This document shows, piece after piece, positions 1,107 through 21,682 of a stretch of 64,000 nucleotides of DNA. Under the pieces are notes generated by a model. The model searched no databases. It was not told the origin of the DNA and worked only from the letters and a program-made list of their open reading frames with translations. The DNA comes from Methylophaga sp. (GTDB lineage: Bacteria; Pseudomonadota; Gammaproteobacteria; Nitrosococcales; Methylophagaceae). A program made the position numbers and the translations under genes. Every line of letters begins with the position of its first letter. Position 1 is the first letter of the stretch. Location: the NCBI GenBank assembly GCA_026988435.1, contig JALSLH010000083.1, positions 1 to 64,000 on the forward strand, in the 5' to 3' direction.

Positions 1107-2566
1107 TAATTTTTATCCTGTGTTGCGAGTAGCTCAGTAAGGTAATCGCTATCTAAATAGTGATCAATCAAATCAGCTAATCGATCAATATCACGTTCAC
1201 GCACGGCATGATAATCTATGGGTTCAAAACCGTTAAAACCAGCCCAATCAAGCAGGGCTTTGCAGGCTTCTCTTTGTTCAAATATACCGTGGATATAGCT
1301 ACCCAAAATAAGATTATCATCGCTTATAGCGCCGTCAGCATGGTCGTGGAGATAACATGCGGGCTTTTGCAAAGCACGTCCCTCAGTAATGCCTGCATGA
1401 ATTTCATAACCCGTCACTTTGGCATGATTAAAAGATAAGGTGCCACTTACATTACGCAGTTGTTTGTCAGGTTTTAGTATTGTATTTATGTCCAGTAGTT
1501 GTAATCCATCACATTGACGAATTGAGCCCTCAATCCTGTCTGGATCAGCTATCGTTGTGCCTAACATTTGGAAACCACCACAGATGCCGATGACTTTGCC
1601 ACCATAACGTAAATGTTTATAAATCGCATGCTGCCAGCCATATTCCATTAAGGCGTTGAGATCGGCAATCACACTTTTAGAACCCGGCAATATAATAAGA
1701 TCAGCTTGGGGAATAGCTTGGTTTGGTGCTATAAATTGTAAATCTATTTGTGGATGAAGCCGCAGGGGATCAAAATCAGTGTGATTACTAATGCGAGGAT
1801 AGGTCAATACCACAACCTTGAAATTAGCCTGTTGTATAACTTGTTGGCTATTAATGGCATCTTCTGCTTCAAGATGAAAGTCTGATAAATAAGGAAGCAC
1901 ACCAATAACTGGCTTTCCGGTTTTATTTTCCAGCCATTCCAAACCGGATGTTAGTAAGCTAATATCACCTCGAAAACGATTAATGATAAAGCCTTTTATT
2001 CTGGCTTGTTCAGAAGGGGATAGCAGTTCCAATGTACCAACCAGCTGGGCAAAGACACCGCCTCGATCTATATCGGCGACTAAAACAACGGGGCAGTCAA
2101 CAGCCTCAGCAAATCCCATATTGGCAATGTCATGATCACGTAAATTAATTTCAGCAGGTGAGCCTGCGCCCTCAACAATAATATAATCATAATGTTGGCG
2201 AAGTCGTTGATACGACTCCAATACTGCAGACATCGCCGTGCTTTTATAATGATGATAATCTTGTGCTTCCATCGTGTTGATAGCATGACCATGAATAATG
2301 ACCTGCGCACCGGTATCACTATTCGGTTTTAATAATACGGGATTCATATCCGTATGCGGTTCAAGCTTGCAGGCTTGCGCCTGTACAGCTTGAGCGCGGC
2401 CAATTTCTCCGCCATCAATAGTCACGGCACTGTTTAATGCCATATTTTGTGGCTTAAAAGGTACAACCACCTTGTTTTTACGTTGTAACCAGCGACATAG
2501 TGCTGTTACCACGGTGCTTTTGCCAGCATCGGAACTGGTGCCTTGAATCATAAGAGTAGTCGTCAT
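1106..2566 (-). CDS. cobQ: CobQ (CbiP), cobyric acid synthase
   Basis: This enzyme amidates adenosylcobyrinic acid a,c-diamide at four side chains using glutamine and ATP. I place the start at the ATG of 2564-2566, giving 486 residues, because [18 protein letters not shown] is the usual N-terminus of the family and the ATG overlaps the stop of the upstream gene. An upstream in-frame start at 2608 would add 14 residues inside the neighbour. The N-terminal dethiobiotin-synthetase-like domain carries the P-loop [10 protein letters not shown] (9-18). The C-terminal class I amidotransferase domain shows the nucleophile in [10 protein letters not shown] and the histidine in SYIHGIFE. It matters only if cobyrinate derivatives are made or imported, as no earlier corrin genes are visible. 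Confidence 0.95.
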
Positions 2567-3549
2567 GATAGCTTCACCTGTTGTAATGCTGTTTCTAAGC
2601 GATTCCAATCATATTCTGTTTTGGGTAAACCAAATCGTATGCTTGATGGTGAGTCAAATAAGCGTGTATGAATGCCTTGTTGTGCAAGTTGATGATAGAT
2701 GCTGGCAGCATGGTCTGTTTGTAGCCATTGAAATAGAGCACATCCCGTACTGAATAAGTGATAATGTTCAAGTAGCTTTTGTAGTCGTCGTTCCATAGCC
2801 AATAACTGCTGTCGGGTTGTTACTTGCCACGCGCTATCAGCTAAAGCCATTTGACTAATATAACGTGATGATGTGGCAATTGGCCAAGGGCCTAGGCACT
2901 CTTTTAGTTGAGATAATAGCGCATTATCGGCAAGCACAAAGCCTACCCGTAACCCTGCCAAGCCAAAAAACTTACCGATCGAACGCAAGACAATTAAACC
3001 AGGTTGAGGACAAATGGAGCTTAAACTCAATTCAGGCGTTATATCAATAAAGGCTTCATCAACAATTAACCAAGCCTTCTTTTTGGCAAGTTGGTGATGC
3101 CAGTTCAGTAATTGCTTAACACTAAATGTATCGCCAGTTGGGTTGTTAGGATTAATAATAATCAACACATCTAAGCTAGCGATTTGTTGCTCAATAGTAG
3201 TGAGATCTAAGATCACAATTGTATGACCAGCTTGTTGCCAGGCATGATGGTGTTCAGCATAAGCAGGTGAGAGTATGCCAACACGACTTTTGATACGACA
3301 ATAAGGTAATGCCTGAATAGCCGCTTGTGAACCCGCCACTGCCAATAGTGATTCACATTGATAATAGCGTTGTGCACTCGATAATAAGCCATCATTATCT
3401 TGTGGTAATTGCTGCCAAATTGACGGAGGAAGATCGGTGGGAACTGTCCAACTATTAGGATTGATACCGGTCGATAAATCCAGACAATCAGCAATTGGTC
3501 TGGCATATTTTTTTGCCATAGAATAGATATTACCACCATGATCAAGCAT
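2563..3549 (-). CDS. cobD: Threonine-phosphate decarboxylase (CobD of Salmonella, CobC of Pseudomonas)
   Basis: This is a PLP-dependent, aminotransferase-fold decarboxylase that makes (R)-1-amino-2-propanol phosphate, the linker CbiB attaches to cobyric acid. The 328 residues begin with [12 protein letters not shown] and [10 protein letters not shown], typical of this branch. The cofactor lysine is in [15 protein letters not shown], and [10 protein letters not shown] and VDEAFID are the usual PLP-pocket motifs. It overlaps cbiB by 8 bases and cobQ by 4, in the order of an operon. The naming differs between species: cobD here means the decarboxylase, not the CbiB synthase. Confidence 0.93.
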
Positions 3550-4459
3550 AATAAGTTAAACCTGAGATAACAACGAGTGTGACAAGCCAAAGCATAATAC
3601 TATGGCGTAACAATCGCAGAGCGCGACGGATATCAACAGCTGTCGGTTCATTGCCATAACCTAAAATAACGCGTTGATGCCAAATACCATCATATTGGGC
3701 AGGACCACCCAATGTAATACCCAAAGCACCTGCACCGGATGCCATTACTGCACCAGCATTAGGGCTATCCCAGTGACCAGCCTGTTTATACCACGCCCGC
3801 AAAGCTTGTTTTGTATTACCCATTACGGCATAACTGAGAGCGGTAAGACGAGCAGGTATATAATTGAGAACATCATCAAGACGTGCTGCAAAACGACCAA
3901 AATAGAGATAATGTGGATTTTTATATCCCCACATTGCGTCCAAAGTATTGGCAAGACGATAAAAAATAACCGCTGGTGCGCCACCGACTAAAAACCAGAA
4001 CAGTGCCGAGAAGACACTATCGGCACCATTTTCTAAAACGGATTCAATCGTTGCCCGTGGAATATGTAAGGTAGCAGGATCGCGGCTGACAATACGGCTG
4101 GCATAATAACGTGCTTGTTCATCATTTTTAGACTCTAATGCCTCAGCAATGGGATAGGCATGATCGTGCAGGCTTTTATGACCAATACAGAATGTGAGCA
4201 TTAGCAGGCTGAAAAGAACACCCCAATAAGCAGTATTGGCAATAAAATAGCTTAGCACGGTAACTGGAACGACTAAAATACACACTGCAAGCACTCCGCG
4301 AAAGAGTTGTTGTGGATTTGATGCCGTTGTTTTGAAACAGAGACGTTCCACTTGGTTGCTTAATTTCCCAAAACCGACCAAAGGGTGCCAACGCTTGGGC
4401 TCGGCGAGCAACCAGTCTAATAAAATGGCCAAGACAATAATTAATGTGCTAAGCAACAT
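3542..4459 (-). CDS. cbiB: CbiB, adenosylcobinamide-phosphate synthase
   Basis: This integral membrane protein joins aminopropanol phosphate to adenosylcobyric acid. The 305 residues match the family length. It opens with a hydrophobic helix and the signature LDWLLAEPKRWHPLVGFGKL split over residues 14-33. RIVSRDPATL and ENGADSVFSALFWF, near 120-155, are conserved CbiB segments. There are several hydrophobic helices and a C-terminal one. It lies 128 bases behind btuM; I see no gene in that gap. Its 3' end overlaps the decarboxylase gene that makes its substrate, which supports joint expression. Confidence 0.94.
   Translation of the reverse strand: MLLSTLIIVLAILLDWLLAEPKRWHPLVGFGKLSNQVERLCFKTTASNPQQLFRGVLAVCILVVPVTVLSYFIANTAYWGVLFSLLMLTFCIGHKSLHDHAYPIAEALESKNDEQARYYASRIVSRDPATLHIPRATIESVLENGADSVFSALFWFLVGGAPAVIFYRLANTLDAMWGYKNPHYLYFGRFAARLDDVLNYIPARLTALSYAVMGNTKQALRAWYKQAGHWDSPNAGAVMASGAGALGITLGGPAQYDGIWHQRVILGYGNEPTAVDIRRALRLLRHSIMLWLVTLVVISGLTYYA

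Positions 4460-13729: not shown

Positions 13730-13733
<4 letters not shown>
13563..13733 (+). CDS. Unknown 56-residue protein, translationally coupled on both sides
   Basis: It starts with ATG at 13563-13565, overlapping the TGA of the VWA gene, and ends with TGA at 13731-13733, overlapping the ATG of the next gene. This double ATGA coupling is the main evidence that the frame is real. The product starts [15 protein letters not shown] and ends in [16 protein letters not shown]. It has no signal peptide or clear membrane helix, and is mixed basic and hydrophobic. I recognise no family. An in-frame ATG at 13518 lies within the VWA tail and is a less likely start. Confidence 0.65.
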
Positions 13734-14647
<914 letters not shown>

Positions 14648-14674
<27 letters not shown>

Positions 14675-15212: not shown

Positions 15213-16082
15213 ATGGCTCTCGACCATGTGGCAACAAATAACAATACCGGAAAAATTGGTCCGGAACGGCAAATATTTACTTTTTATATAGAAGACATGA
15301 TGTTTGGTCTTGATGTGGAAAATGTATTGATGTTGGGTCAAGATATCAGTGATATTCAGCGATTGCCTGTTGAAGAGCGAGGCTTTTGTGGTGTGACAAA
15401 GTATCAGGGTACAATTGTTCCTGTATTAGACTTTGCTCACCGCTTAGGTATTGCATCAGGTATGGATGTTAAGTCTGAATTAATAACGACGTTAATAGAT
15501 CGAGAAAAAGATCATATTGAATGGATGAATTCTCTCGAAGTATCAATTAAAACGGGGGCGGCCTTTGTTAAGGCGCTTAATCCCGATGAATGTGCTTTTG
15601 GTAAGTGGTATAACAAGTTTGAAACGCGTGATGAAACCTTAGAAGAATTGCTACAGGTATTCGATGAGCCACATAGAAAGATCCATGCTTTGGGAGAAAA
15701 ATTACTAGCACTGCGTGATAATGATAAGGTAGACGAAGCCTTAGAAATATTACAGCACGAACGTGCTACTACATTGAGACGTTTACGTGCTTTGTTTACG
15801 CGTGCGCGCGATCAAATTCAGGGAGGCATGCGACAAGTACTATTATTTGTGACCTTAGATGGTAAAACACCGCTCTATGCATTGATGATTGATGATATTA
15901 ATGATGTAATCAATTACATGCCCTCGGAACTTCAATCAAGTCGTTCTGGCGCTTTAGGGCTGATTTCAAAAATTGAACATGTGATAGAGGGTATTTTTGC
16001 TCGAGAGAATATGCCTGATTGTTTGTATTTTGATATTAACAAAATGACAGACCTTGATGAGATAATCAAAAAAGTGAGTTAG
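15213..16082 (+). CDS. CheW-like coupling protein with an inserted zinc-binding CZB domain
   Basis: A CheW fold (about 20-95 and 205-285 of 289 residues) is interrupted by a chemoreceptor zinc-binding domain. The CZB ligands are visible as His101 (HIEW), Cys127 (CAFGKW), His154 and His158 (EPHRKIH), the usual three-His, one-Cys set. Such proteins are thought to link receptor arrays and a CheA kinase while sensing zinc or hypochlorite-type oxidation of the zinc site. No cheA or receptor gene is nearby. It follows the Pro-Glu-repeat gene by 131 bases, which contain no other gene, and could belong to the same signalling group. Confidence 0.85.
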   Translation: MALDHVATNNNTGKIGPERQIFTFYIEDMMFGLDVENVLMLGQDISDIQRLPVEERGFCGVTKYQGTIVPVLDFAHRLGIASGMDVKSELITTLIDREKDHIEWMNSLEVSIKTGAAFVKALNPDECAFGKWYNKFETRDETLEELLQVFDEPHRKIHALGEKLLALRDNDKVDEALEILQHERATTLRRLRALFTRARDQIQGGMRQVLLFVTLDGKTPLYALMIDDINDVINYMPSELQSSRSGALGLISKIEHVIEGIFARENMPDCLYFDINKMTDLDEIIKKVS

Positions 16083-16136
16083 TAGCAAATAATTATTATA
16101 ATGAGCCATAAATAGTTTTTAAAGGGTTCAATATAA

Positions 16137-16604
16137 ATGAAACTTTTGCCTTATATCACCGCTGAAGGTATGGCTGTTCTAAACGATGAGCTAGAGGCTA
16201 TTTGGATACGTCGCAGGGATGTAGTTAAAGCTTTATCCGCCGCCGCTGCAGAAGGTGACCGCAGTGAAAATGCAGAATATATTTACCGAAAGAAAGAGTT
16301 GAGAGGCTTAGATCGACGAATTCGGTATTTACAAAAAAGAATGCCTGATTTACGGGTCGTAGCGGTTCCGCCCGATGATGAGACTAAGATTTTCTTCGCG
16401 GCATTTGTACTGTTAGAAAATGAAAAACACACTCGGATTGAATATCGAATTGTCGGTTCTGATGAACGAGACCACCAAAAAAATAATATAAGTATAGAGT
16501 CGCCGCTCGCGCAAGCCTTATTAGGAAAAGAAGTGAATGATGCTGTGCTAATTCATGCACCGGCAGGCGATACAAACTATTTTATTGTTGCTATTCGATA
16601 TTAA
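16137..16604 (+). CDS. greB: GreB-type transcript cleavage factor
   Basis: This RNA polymerase secondary-channel factor stimulates cleavage of backtracked transcripts. The 155 residues align well with GreB throughout. The tip of the coiled coil carries the acidic pair Asp41 and Glu44 in GDRSENAEY. The C-terminal FKBP-like domain shows RIVGSDE, ISIESPLAQALLGKEV and the final IVAIRY. GreA homologues are less similar at LRGLDRRIRYLQKRM, so GreB is preferred. It stands 54 bases behind the CheW-like gene with its own spacing; no link in function is evident. Confidence 0.93.
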   Translation: MKLLPYITAEGMAVLNDELEAIWIRRRDVVKALSAAAAEGDRSENAEYIYRKKELRGLDRRIRYLQKRMPDLRVVAVPPDDETKIFFAAFVLLENEKHTRIEYRIVGSDERDHQKNNISIESPLAQALLGKEVNDAVLIHAPAGDTNYFIVAIRY

Positions 16605-16657: not shown

Positions 16658-17302
16658 ATGAAGCCAACACTACTCATTGTTGAAGACTCTAAAGCCACAA
16701 GAGAGCGATTAGAAAGCGCTATCGTTGAAGGTGATATGTATGAGCTTATTGCTTCAGTTGGCTCGTTTGAAGAAGCAAAATCTGCTTTGCAAAATCTATC
16801 GCCTGAAATTTTATTAACCGATATTGGCTTGCCAGACGGCAATGGCATTGATCTTATTCATATGCTTAAATTGCCTGCAATAAAAACATCTTTAGCGATT
16901 GTCATTACTGTTTTTGGTGATGCAGAACATGTCATTACGGCCTTAAAAGCCGGAGCTTCAGGTTATATATTGAAAGATGATGACTTTATGGGAATTAATA
17001 ATGCAATTACCTGTATGGTCAATGGCGGTTCGCCCATCAGCCCAACAATAGCACGTTACTTGTTAACAGAACTATCAATGCCGACACAAACAGAATCAGG
17101 CGAAAAACATGGTGATTTAAGTGCACGTGAGCATGAGATTTTACTGTTGGTAAGTAAAGGTTATACGTCAAAAGAGATTGGTGATATTCTGGAATTATCG
17201 TTTCACACTATTAATGGCTATGTTAAGAACTTGTATAAAAAACTTTCTGTTAACAGCAGAACAGAAGCCATTTATGAAGCCACTAGAAAAGGCATAATTT
17301 AG
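16658..17302 (+). CDS. NarL/LuxR-type response regulator
   Basis: This regulator has 214 residues: a receiver domain with the phosphorylated Asp55 (LLTDIGLPDGNG), acidic pocket ED (9-10) and the KAGASGYILKDD segment, then a LuxR-type helix-turn-helix (LSAREHEILLLVSKGYTSKEIGDIL). The class matches the NarX-type kinase at 20276, and the two flank a TonB receptor and a binding protein on the same strand, so they probably form one two-component pair. Target promoters are unknown; the receptor gene 61 bases downstream is the first candidate. Confidence 0.9.
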   Translation: MKPTLLIVEDSKATRERLESAIVEGDMYELIASVGSFEEAKSALQNLSPEILLTDIGLPDGNGIDLIHMLKLPAIKTSLAIVITVFGDAEHVITALKAGASGYILKDDDFMGINNAITCMVNGGSPISPTIARYLLTELSMPTQTESGEKHGDLSAREHEILLLVSKGYTSKEIGDILELSFHTINGYVKNLYKKLSVNSRTEAIYEATRKGII

Positions 17303-17363
17303 GAACTAGAGTGAGAGTAAATGTAGCGCGATTTTAATGCTTAAAATCTCTTAAGGAATCAAA

Positions 17364-19373
17364 ATGAAAAAAAGCAAGCTAGCACTAGCTGGGTTAATTT
17401 ATTGTATTTCCAGTGCTGCATCTGCATCTGCAATGGAAGACAGCTTTTTTTCAACTGACTTGCCTGTCGTCATTAGTGCAAGTAGACTAACGCAATCAGT
17501 ATTAACTAGCCCCTCTGCAGTAACCGTGATTGATAAAGCCATGATTGAAGCATCCGGTTTTATTGAGATAGCAGATTTAATGCGACTAGTTCCTGGCTTT
17601 CAAGTCGCTTACGCTGATGGCAAAGACATAGCTGTGACGTACCATGGCCATGGCTGGGAGTTTCCGAATCGATTACAACTATTGGTTAATGGCCGCTCTA
17701 CCTATACTTCAGCACTATCTACTGTCGATTGGAGTGCAATAGGTGTTCATATTAGCGATATTGAAAGAATAGAAGTGGTACGTGGGCCGGCAGCTTCTGC
17801 TTATGGCTCAAACTCCTTTTCGGCAGCGATTAATATTATTACCATTTCTCCCGAGTTAGATGACAAATTTACGGTGAGACTTCGCGCTGGCAATAAGGGC
17901 GAGCAAGAAAAATTATTGCGATACAGTGATTCTGTTGGAGATATGCACTATCGCGTGAGTGCTGCAACACGAGAAAATAGTGGCTTTGATGATGTAAATG
18001 ATTTTCAGGACATCAATAGCCTTTCAGTTCAGGGCCGAATGGAATTGAAAAATAATGACGTGTTGGATATTAATTTAGCTTACACAAATGGTGTAACAGG
18101 GGCAGAGTATGATGAGGTTGTCCCTACACATAATCGATCTATTACGGCATTATCAGGCCAGATAGAGTGGCAACATATAGTTTCTGATCATGAAGACCTG
18201 AAACTAAGTTTTTATCATAATTATCATGATGAAAATGATCAAGTGGAAACCTATTTACTTTCTAAAATATTTGGGATTACTCCTGCGGCATTCCTACTTT
18301 TCTCGGGACAACCCGATCAGACGATTACCTATGGTCTTAGAACGAATAGATCAACACGATCTGATTTGGAATTACAATATAGTTGGTTTAATAGCGCCGG
18401 TGTTAAATATGTAGTGGGTGCGGGTGCACGCTATGACACGTTAAAAAATGACTTTTTGATGCATGATAAAGGTGTTATTTCTGATACGGGTTTCCGAGCT
18501 TATGGTAATTTGCAATTTCCTTTATATGATAAATTAACCGCTAATATAGGCGCGAGTTATGAAACAAGTAGAATCAACGATTCAACGCTCTCTCCGAGAG
18601 CCAGTTTAAACTGGCAGATAGCGGATCAACAATCATTGAGAATTGCCACGTCACGCGCTTATCGCCACCCCTCTATTTTAGAAAGAAATTTATATACTGT
18701 CACCGAGCTATCAAATGGGTTAATACTAGATCTCATTAACTATTCTGATCCTAATTTAGATGCAGAAGAAATAACAAGTTTAGAGTTAGGTTATCTGGGT
18801 AAACTAGCTGATGTGCCTTTTAGCTGGGAATTTAAAGCCTATAAAGAAAGAATAAATAAAGTGACCGATTTTGTTGGGGACAGAGGGGTTATTGACCTAG
18901 TAGACAATAGGTCAAGAGCGCTTGTTAATACACGAGGTTATTGGATTTATGGTATTGAAGGTGAACTTACCTATCGGCCTCAGAAAGATATGTTTGTTAA
19001 ATTTCAATTTAACAATGGGCGTAGTTATGAGAAAACATTAAAAAGAATCAATCCAATTAAAGTGTTTGAATCTAAAGATAGATCGCCGAGTGAAAGTTAT
19101 GGATTACTTATAAGTTTACCTGTACAAGAAGACTGGCATATTAATTTCGGTGTCTACAGAATGGGGGGCATAGAATGGGATGGGCAGGGAGATTATGTTG
19201 AGGCATATACCCGGGTTGATGCCTCAATTTCTAAGGATTTCAGATTTGGATCTAAACGCAAGCTTAAATTAAAAATCGCCGCTCAAAATATTAATAATAA
19301 ATATGAAGAGTTTAAAGAGGATCAGTTTTCTGAACCATTTTATTATGCAGAAATCTCATTTACTGAGTTCTAA
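17364..19373 (+). CDS. TonB-dependent outer-membrane receptor, unknown ligand
   Basis: This receptor has 669 residues with a signal peptide (about 1-23, SASA-MED), a TonB-box-like DLPVVISASRL (33-43), a plug domain and a 22-strand-type barrel ending in ISFTEF. Plug motifs include ADLMRLVPGFQVAYADGKD and RIEVVRGPAASAYGSNSFSA. It directly abuts the binding-protein gene, with stop and start adjacent at 19373/19374. There is no riboswitch or visible Fur-type site just upstream. Ligand candidates include a metal chelate, cobamide or small organic signal; the sequence does not decide. Confidence 0.9.
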   Translation: MKKSKLALAGLIYCISSAASASAMEDSFFSTDLPVVISASRLTQSVLTSPSAVTVIDKAMIEASGFIEIADLMRLVPGFQVAYADGKDIAVTYHGHGWEFPNRLQLLVNGRSTYTSALSTVDWSAIGVHISDIERIEVVRGPAASAYGSNSFSAAINIITISPELDDKFTVRLRAGNKGEQEKLLRYSDSVGDMHYRVSAATRENSGFDDVNDFQDINSLSVQGRMELKNNDVLDINLAYTNGVTGAEYDEVVPTHNRSITALSGQIEWQHIVSDHEDLKLSFYHNYHDENDQVETYLLSKIFGITPAAFLLFSGQPDQTITYGLRTNRSTRSDLELQYSWFNSAGVKYVVGAGARYDTLKNDFLMHDKGVISDTGFRAYGNLQFPLYDKLTANIGASYETSRINDSTLSPRASLNWQIADQQSLRIATSRAYRHPSILERNLYTVTELSNGLILDLINYSDPNLDAEEITSLELGYLGKLADVPFSWEFKAYKERINKVTDFVGDRGVIDLVDNRSRALVNTRGYWIYGIEGELTYRPQKDMFVKFQFNNGRSYEKTLKRINPIKVFESKDRSPSESYGLLISLPVQEDWHINFGVYRMGGIEWDGQGDYVEAYTRVDASISKDFRFGSKRKLKLKIAAQNINNKYEEFKEDQFSEPFYYAEISFTEF

Positions 19374-20276
19374 ATGAGGCGTTTAATTCTTTTATTATTA
19401 CTGGTCTTCTCGACAGCTTATGTACATGCATCGCCTAAATCCATCTATATTGTGCTGTCTAGTGGCGATGAGGTTTACTATAAAATAGGTAACGCTTTAA
19501 GTGAGCAGTTCAGTCATTCCGAATTCCCCATTGACCATATTAAAGTCATCACACTAAATGAGGAACAATTTGACACAATTAAAGAAGATGATTTAATTGT
19601 AGCTATTGGCAATAAAGCAGCTGAAGAATCTTATCGTTATCGATTTTCAAATACGATTATTTATAGTTTTGTTGAACAAAATAAGATTAGTGAAATTTAT
19701 CAGGGAAATGAGTTTAAAGACTGGGCAGCAATTACAGTCAACCAACCAGTCGAGCGATTAATATCAATCGCTGATAACTTAGTTAAAAACAAATATAAGA
19801 ATAAAATTGTCATTGTTATTTCACAAAACAATGTTCAACTAAAACGTGCTATTAATGCAATTAAACCACTAAAAAAAGGGCAAATAGAAATTGTAGAAAT
19901 TCAGCCGGATGATGTGGTTGCCAAAGTCGTTGAGAAATCATTATTTAATGCGGCGGCACTTATTTCAACAGACGAAGAAAATATTTGGTCAGGCACGAAT
20001 GCCAAAGGCTTATTACGCCAAGCTTATAATTATCAAGTACCTATTGTGGGTAATTCTAAGCGATTTTTGAAAGCGGGTGCATTAATCTCTGTTTATTCAT
20101 CGATGGAAAAAATATCAGAGGCAACACTGCAGTTAATGCAGCAATGGTTCGATGACCAAATGCTCACAAGTACAGGCATACATTATGTGCCGAGCACAAT
20201 TGATATCAATAAAAATATCGCTCAAGTATTGCACTACAATATGAATGTTCTTCAAACACTTGAGGTGGGTGAATAA
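19374..20276 (+). CDS. Periplasmic binding protein related to the ABC_sub_bind family
   Basis: This protein has 300 residues with a signal peptide (about 1-19, VHA-SP). The two-lobed pattern (YIVLSSGDEVYYKIGNAL, DLIVAIGNKAAEES, TIIYSFVEQNK, then IVIVISQNN and ALISTDEENIW) resembles the solute-binding proteins of PF04392. No ABC permease or ATPase is adjacent; instead the gene is tied to a TonB receptor upstream and a histidine kinase downstream, sharing base 20276 with the kinase start (TAATG). I infer that it presents a ligand to the kinase rather than to a transporter. Confidence 0.78.
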   Translation: MRRLILLLLLVFSTAYVHASPKSIYIVLSSGDEVYYKIGNALSEQFSHSEFPIDHIKVITLNEEQFDTIKEDDLIVAIGNKAAEESYRYRFSNTIIYSFVEQNKISEIYQGNEFKDWAAITVNQPVERLISIADNLVKNKYKNKIVIVISQNNVQLKRAINAIKPLKKGQIEIVEIQPDDVVAKVVEKSLFNAAALISTDEENIWSGTNAKGLLRQAYNYQVPIVGNSKRFLKAGALISVYSSMEKISEATLQLMQQWFDDQMLTSTGIHYVPSTIDINKNIAQVLHYNMNVLQTLEVGE

Positions 20277-21682
20277 TGTTTGGCGGAACAATTAAGCAAC
20301 AATTACGAATCATTGCTATAGCACCGTTATTAATGGTCATATTAATAGTATCGGTCTTTTTATTGAAAGACTCATTAGAGTATATCGATAATGATTTAGA
20401 TAAGCGTGGCCATGAAATTTCATCACAAGCCGTAGCACTGTCAGAATTTTATTTTTACACTGGAGATGTAGAGAAATTAACAGAAGTTGCTGAAAAGCTA
20501 TTGCAGATTGACATGTTAAATTCTGTTCGGTTTATGAATAAAGATAAATCTGAGTGGGTGTATCGAGTTAAGGATAGTAACGATGGCGATACTAAGAAAT
20601 ATACAGTTCCAGTATTGAGTGGTGTTGAGGTGGATGACTTTATACCGATTAATAATGTGAGTTCTGATCCAAATGTTTTGGGTTATATTCAGGTTGAACT
20701 AACTAAAGACAGCATAAACAAAAGAAGAAAAGATGTGTATCTAAAATCTATGACCGTTACATCAGTTGCATTGTTAACGGGGCTTTTGTTAAGTTATTTT
20801 TTTGGTAGGAAACTGACAAACTCAATAACAGATCTATTTGAAACATCGAGTAAGATTGAAAAAAGAAACTATCGGCAAAGGTGCTTAGAAAATGGTTCCG
20901 GCGAGTTACTACGCTTTCAAAAAATGTTTAATAAAATGGCAGGTTCATTACAACATAACGAAGAACAATTACAGGCAGAAATTGAGCAGACTCTTGAGGC
21001 GCTAAATAAGACCATTGATGAACTAGCTATTAAAGAACGCGATCTTGATGAAACACGGGATAAAACGCTTAAATTAGTACGAGAGAAGGCTGTTGCTGAT
21101 GAACGTTCTCGTATCATGAAAGATATTCATGATGGTATAGGTGGACAATTAATGGCATCGTTATCGTTAATTGAAAAAGAAGAAGACTCTGAAATAAGAG
21201 AGAACATCCATTCAATATTATCAGACTGCTTAGGTGATTTTAGACTGATTATTAATTCATTGAATGTGCATGCTAATACCTTATCTGTACTGCTTGCGGA
21301 CTACAAATATAGTTTAAGTAAAAAGATAGAAAATCTTGATATAGAATTAGATTGGACCATGGAAGACTTTACAGAATCTATAGTATTAACGCCGCAACAA
21401 GGTTTGCATTTATTACGGATATTGCAGGAGGCATTTACTAACATCCTTAAACATTCTGGTGCGACGGGCATTGGCTTTCATACTTATCAACAAAATGAAC
21501 ATGCAGTCATCGTGATTGAAGATAACGGCAAATTTCTTTTATGTGAAAGCGAACAAATGGGCCATGGACTTATGAATATGAAGTCTCGTGCTCAAGAACT
21601 AGGTGCCGAGTTAGATATCAGTAAAAGTAAACTAGGTGGCTGTCGAATTATTATAGTAATTCCATTACCATCTACGGTTTAA
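20276..21682 (+). CDS. NarX-type (HisKA_3) membrane sensor histidine kinase
   Basis: This kinase has 468 residues. Two membrane helices (about 11-29 and 160-178) enclose a periplasmic sensor domain of about 130 residues. A HAMP-like linker and coiled coil (about 180-275) follow. The phosphoacceptor is His285 in RSRIMKDIHDGIGG, and the ATPase domain has EAFTNILKHS, IEDNGK and GHGLMNMKSRA. The HisKA_3 class pairs with LuxR-type regulators, matching 16658-17302. Its coupling to the binding protein suggests it reads that protein's ligand. Its 3' end overlaps the convergent dehydrogenase gene by 11 bases. Confidence 0.9.
   Translation: MFGGTIKQQLRIIAIAPLLMVILIVSVFLLKDSLEYIDNDLDKRGHEISSQAVALSEFYFYTGDVEKLTEVAEKLLQIDMLNSVRFMNKDKSEWVYRVKDSNDGDTKKYTVPVLSGVEVDDFIPINNVSSDPNVLGYIQVELTKDSINKRRKDVYLKSMTVTSVALLTGLLLSYFFGRKLTNSITDLFETSSKIEKRNYRQRCLENGSGELLRFQKMFNKMAGSLQHNEEQLQAEIEQTLEALNKTIDELAIKERDLDETRDKTLKLVREKAVADERSRIMKDIHDGIGGQLMASLSLIEKEEDSEIRENIHSILSDCLGDFRLIINSLNVHANTLSVLLADYKYSLSKKIENLDIELDWTMEDFTESIVLTPQQGLHLLRILQEAFTNILKHSGATGIGFHTYQQNEHAVIVIEDNGKFLLCESEQMGHGLMNMKSRAQELGAELDISKSKLGGCRIIIVIPLPSTV

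Follow-up and report, generated by a model that had tools for sequence, protein, structure and literature searches.

The window analysed here, a stretch of 64,000 nucleotides of Methylophaga DNA, carries four consecutive plus-strand genes, which the ORF calls place in the order response regulator, TonB-dependent receptor, periplasmic binding protein and histidine kinase. The first gene (16658..17302) encodes a LuxR/NarL-type response regulator of 214 aa with a receiver and a GerE HTH, and is followed by a gap of 61 nt (17303..17363) assigned to neither strand. The receptor gene (17364..19373; 669 aa, Plug and barrel), the gene of the periplasmic binding protein with a PF04392 fold (19374..20276; 300 aa) and the kinase gene (20276..21682; 468 aa, BarA/GacS-type sensor and NarX/NarQ-type transmitter) are spaced by 0-1 nt. 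As read in the sequence, the receptor TAA (19371-19373) is followed without spacing by the ATG of the binding-protein gene at 19374, and the TAA of the latter (20274-20276) shares one base with the kinase ATG. The neighbours scanned for domains were GreB, CheW-CZB and GSDH, and none of them was an ABC permease or ATPase. The first-pass annotation had described the same gene order, the stop-start contact of the last three genes and the absence of an ABC permease or ATPase, and all of this was confirmed by the ORFs, the sequence reading and the scanned neighbours. The 61-nt gap is a possible place for control of the receptor promoter; no significant consensus site was found in it, and the promoter and terminator scans returned no more sites than shuffled sequences. 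Plasmid transfer of the unit was considered and rejected, as there was no plasmid match. A CheW domain protein with a zinc-binding CZB domain is encoded just upstream of the unit (15213-16082), and a protein with a long Glu-Pro repeat is encoded at 13730-14674.

The domain scan found only the Plug and TonB barrel domains in the receptor and no STN signalling domain at its N-terminus; the FecA/FecR route is therefore unavailable to this receptor. FecR/anti-sigma and sigma genes were likewise absent among the scanned neighbours, and FecR-type signalling was rejected because the locus has no such domains. The unit resembles FecA-FecR-FecI in that a TonB receptor is tied to gene control, but it differs in having no STN domain, FecR or ECF sigma factor; the distinction from FecR/sigma surface signalling drawn earlier holds as far as these STN, anti-sigma and sigma searches reach. 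The receptor is distantly related to the TOL_0244 family (171 bits; cut-off 645), which mostly accompanies YfiR-like proteins and not a PF04392-like binding protein. TOL_0244 was reported to be induced sevenfold by a C28 alkane (PMC6304351). The response regulator contains Response_reg and GerE domains in the domain scan, and its phospho-acceptor Asp55, together with Asp10 and Lys106, is conserved among the relatives. It is not GacA/UvrY (66.9 bits; cut-off 280).

The binding protein starts with an apparent Sec signal peptide (MRRLILLLLLVFSTAYVHA) and has no lipobox cysteine. It scored 18.5 bits against the PF04392 (ABC_sub_bind) profile, under the Pfam cut-off of 25.9, and a default-threshold PF04392 search of its own genome was empty for this reason; most of its relatives pass the cut-off, and 43/43 match at E <= 0.01. 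The model of the protein (pLDDT 92) has a class I periplasmic binding protein fold, with the aromatic-amino-acid PF04392 proteins CD0873, VC_1101 and SP1069 as the nearest folds (Z 19-22). CD0873 was matched with Z 22.3 and rmsd 3.6 over 269 residues, as compared to Z 14.9 for the next other family, and complexes of TorT and LuxP were also among the fold matches. The description as PF04392-like, made earlier from the letters, is thus carried by the fold, while the profile match stays below the cut-off. Phe, Tyr or Trp is the ligand in three PF04392 structures (PMC6816091). When the ligand pocket was mapped by sequence alignment, Ala246 of VC_1101, which sets the side-chain choice in that protein, aligned with the invariant Ser228, and the neighbouring Tyr262 of VC_1101 would usually correspond to Pro in this family. 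Ser228 and Asp/Glu201 are present in all 43 aligned members, and a Gln-Pro-x-x-Arg motif (Gln124-Pro125-Arg128) in 40-41 of them. As judged from this alignment, the pocket is conserved yet different from the aromatic-amino-acid pocket of PF04392, and aromatic amino acids are therefore not a safe guess for the ligand.

The kinase is composed of a single-Cache-like periplasmic sensor between two TM helices, a HAMP-like linker and a transmitter that appears to be of NarX/NarQ type. The best NCBIfam match was NarQ, covering residues 274-463, and the HATPase_c domain scored above its cut-off while HisKA_3 reached 20.5 bits, below the cut-off of 24; His285 is invariant, and Asn389 and the G-box glycines are also kept among the relatives. 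The full-length NarX/NarQ equivalog, which includes the nitrate sensor, gave 81.7 bits against 553, and the best-matching stretch covers the transmitter only. A sensor-only profile built from the periplasmic part of BarA-type relatives, with the Methylophagaceae left out, found the sensor of the window kinase at E 1e-20 and matched nothing outside the family. The earlier label of a NarX-type kinase thus probably fits the transmitter but not the sensor, which is of BarA/GacS type. The BarA equivalog itself gave 60 bits against 890 on the window kinase, and the domain scan found neither a receiver nor an Hpt domain in it, and a HisKA_3 type instead of HisKA. A docking motif in the sensor, with [G/N]N within the first helix and, past the sheet, an acidic-aromatic D-D-F/Y, was also tried and rejected. 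The two candidates went together with the presence of the binding protein at 30 loci (Fisher 0.009 and 0.002), with motifs picked post hoc and rows of the test that are related to each other, and one genome (G403, 85% complete) has both motifs and no match to the predicted binding protein.

A conserved-neighbourhood search was conducted in Gammaproteobacteria, where the binding-protein profile matched 73/369 genomes of an even draw from the class. Forty-six gammaproteobacterial neighbourhoods, nine of them from Methylophagaceae, were read. A kinase or cyclase gene directly adjoins the binding-protein gene in 45/46 of them, mostly with an overlap or a few bases between the two, and the remaining locus lies near a contig end. 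A TonB receptor gene was found in 37/46, on the same strand within 3.5 kb in 36 and downstream of the kinase in one more (L060). As roughly one locus in five has no receptor, the core of the unit consists of the binding protein and the kinase. The outputs beside the binding protein are mostly BarA-like hybrid kinases (sCache_4, HAMP, HisKA, HATPase, receiver, Hpt), with some GGDEF/EAL proteins and, in Methylophagaceae, short NarX-type kinases; a LuxR-type regulator joins the unit mainly in the branch containing Methylophagaceae. The set proposed earlier as a single sensing unit therefore recurs, and it is a conserved module rather than a chance cluster. That the genes are merely co-transcribed and share no common pathway is hardly credible; the operon layout is all that is directly visible in the own genome, but the same set recurs in varied contexts and in dozens of families.

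PF04392 proteins are generally components of ABC systems, and the receptor and binding protein might feed an ABC transporter encoded elsewhere, while the kinase uses a Cache-like domain of its own to detect the compound or a shortage of it. The permease and ATPase that such a system uses are readily seen where they exist: in the positive control (G215), a PF02653 permease and an ATPase adjoin a transport-type PF04392 gene. No PF02653 permease was matched in the own genome (95% complete), and 35/60 carrier genomes, the own one included, have no match at all. None lies near the module genes in the 60 carrier genomes, the nearest on the same contig being hundreds of kb away. The partner adjoining the binding-protein gene in the relatives is a kinase or cyclase and never a PF02653 permease, which answers the concern that the protein might be found mostly beside ABC permeases, and it is the kinase gene that it overlaps in translation. 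Since no gene was found for a PF02653 transporter, whether close by or far away, import by this route was rejected, and we regard the uptake operon as a whole as improbable. In four members of the class, PF04392 is fused N-terminally to a PAS/GAF hybrid kinase or to GGDEF-EAL proteins (L134 2073-7211; L135 2346-5624; L136 3988-6339; L137 4434-6773). These natural fusions with output domains show that the PF04392 fold serves as a signalling input. In the tree, the four fused domains branch apart from the clade of the module itself, which counts against the co-sensing reading. At another locus (L138 in G319, 2088-4026), the binding protein and the kinase sensor stand in one frame; this fusion was left uncounted, since the contig is short and a sibling genome has overlapping separate genes.

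The class draw contained 68 BarA-family kinases matched from the N-terminus at 500 bits or more. The gene directly upstream encodes the binding protein in 39 of them, and two of these 39 exceed the NCBI BarA equivalog cut-off. BarA was the best NCBIfam match of ten out of ten hybrid kinases of the module (432-921 bits, one above 890). In 19 of 21 genomes with a BarA-family kinase that lacks an upstream binding protein, no match was present anywhere at E 1e-8, and it follows that the binding protein goes with the kinase. Several of these pairs occupy the classic barA position next to cysM/rlmD. At L066, read by Pfam, the unit has cysM-like/rlmD-like genes on one side and acpS-pdxJ-recO-era-rnc on the other; in the neighbour clustering, cysM-like genes occurred at 12 loci, and so did rlmD-like genes. 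The barA gene of E. coli adjoins rlmD-relA, and it encodes a BarA-type sensor that has no binding protein; such a sensor can therefore work alone, which counts against sensing through a partner. In several large genomes (L196-L200), a triple of receptor, binding protein and BarA-like hybrid kinase lies beside gpsA and/or fabA-fabB, and the receiver of this kinase is nearly identical to PDB 7c1j. This structure is that of PA1611 of Pseudomonas aeruginosa, and by synteny we take the triple, in genomes that have gpsA on one side of it and fabA-fabB on the other, to be the PA1611 locus of Pseudomonas. The PA1611-type locus shares the triple with the present unit, and its kinase differs by a HisKA hybrid transmitter. 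PA1611 has been shown to act in the GacS/RetS network (PMC4866733).

The binding protein is present in 9/57 Methylophagaceae genomes; a single-protein query had found one Methylophaga relative only, and an alignment-based genome search was used instead. This narrow distribution speaks against the co-sensing reading. The order regulator, receptor, binding protein and kinase is kept in the two closest relatives in the same context, and in most other Methylophagaceae loci in a different context; the position of the receptor differs at L012, and the receptor is lost at L015. Eight Methylophagaceae loci are not cut by a contig end, and the regulator stays with the kinase in every one of them, which counts against its being paired with another kinase. 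In one Methylophagaceae group (L013-L016), the genes beside the cassette resemble those of arginine decarboxylase and carboxynorspermidine enzymes, and a polyamine is a conceivable ligand. In the tree, the Methylophagaceae binding proteins form one clade (100/100) within the BarA-linked set, with L054 and L060 as neighbours (99/95). From the position of this clade and the kinship of the sensors, the sensor and its partner appear to be old and the NarX-type transmitter a replacement in Methylophagaceae; the output was apparently swapped in the Methylophaga version by exchange of the transmitter, with the binding protein and the sensor kept.

The periplasmic slot between receptor and sensor can be filled by an unrelated protein. 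TOL_0244-family receptors, which are of the same broad kind as the present one, adjoin DUF4154 (YfiR) genes in 30/44 strong matches, and both of the scanned TOL_0244-DUF4154 loci continue with a CHASE8-sensor hybrid kinase. An NCBIfam entry (NF053592) names a kinase sensor domain 'YfiR-like protein-associated'. These loci support the general layout of receptor, relay and sensor, yet the relay could report the state of the receptor instead of the ligand. YfiR of the YfiBNR system moves between an outer-membrane partner and an inner-membrane enzyme (PMC3375315), and the binding protein may act in the same way, being freed or trapped according to receptor occupancy and then repressing or activating the sensor, so that binding of a ligand of its own would be unnecessary. 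The altered aromatic-amino-acid pocket would fit such a shuttle. However, even very divergent members agree in the positions that line the pocket, a constraint for which a protein that only carries a message has no use, and the binding protein and kinase persist in the loci that lack the receptor; we consider the shuttle less likely, though a serious rival. YfiBNR is like the unit in its outer-membrane part, periplasmic protein and inner-membrane enzyme with a small periplasmic sensor, but YfiB is a Pal-like lipoprotein and YfiR does not have the binding-protein fold. In the own genome, a DUF4154 (YfiR-like) gene and that of a GGDEF/EAL-motif protein also lie together at the end of one contig, and the end of a second contig carries a TOL_0244-type TonB receptor (L092, G000:C42, 12752-15726; L150, G000:C83 end, 15377-16516); the assembly may have split a single parallel module here. 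The domain scan found no DUF4154 protein in the unit, and the DUF4154 gene is on a contig other than that of the unit, which is accordingly not assigned to YfiBNR.

We think it probable that the four genes form a sensing line from TonB receptor through binding protein and kinase to regulator, as an output-swapped variant of a BarA-family module. The receptor would admit a specific scarce compound to the periplasm, and the PF04392-like protein, without a transporter to serve, would capture it and dock on the kinase at its BarA/GacS-type sensor domain. In its liganded or its unliganded form, the binding protein would then switch the NarX-type transmitter, and the kinase would phosphorylate the adjacent LuxR-type regulator. 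The unit would be the Methylophagaceae variant of a system whose binding protein, elsewhere, works for BarA-family hybrid kinases and is usually accompanied by a receptor of this kind. The operon layout, the co-inheritance, the folds, the kinship of the sensors, the absence of a cognate permease and the PF04392 fusions with kinase and GGDEF/EAL proteins back this reading; the entry and capture of the ligand, the contact between binding protein and kinase, the phosphotransfer, the direction of control and the target promoter or regulon are what we infer. The first-pass annotation had traced a similar path from import to a regulator that may control the receptor gene, and as a whole it is partly supported.

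The unit is like LuxP-LuxQ and TorT-TorS in that a membrane kinase is accompanied by a periplasmic binding protein of class I fold and by no permease. Unlike these systems, it has a TonB receptor in the operon, a PF04392 protein, a BarA-type single Cache-like sensor and a NarX/NarL-like output. It shares the periplasmic sensor with the BarA/GacS master sensors (VarS, LetS; the Gac/Rsm pathway), and in its relatives the binding protein is encoded directly upstream of BarA-family kinases, but the kinase of Methylophaga lacks both receiver and Hpt, has a NarX-type transmitter and is coupled with a regulator other than GacA/UvrY. According to a review (PMC7695008), no ligand of GacS is known; its text makes no mention of TonB, and a periplasmic binding protein comes up solely in the title of one reference. 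No description of the set was found in the open-access PMC papers covered by our search. We lean slightly towards the view that the BarA/GacS-family signal arrives, in a large part of Gammaproteobacteria, via a TonB receptor and a PF04392-like periplasmic co-receptor, and that the Methylophaga unit is a rewired offshoot with a NarX/NarL-type output. If the binding protein does receive this signal, the purified protein could be used for direct ligand screening, and the receptor would indicate the class of molecule crossing the outer membrane. The module apparently represents surface sensing by TonB receptors without FecR or sigma factors, and the Methylophaga unit looks like a natural exchange of the kinase output with the input kept.
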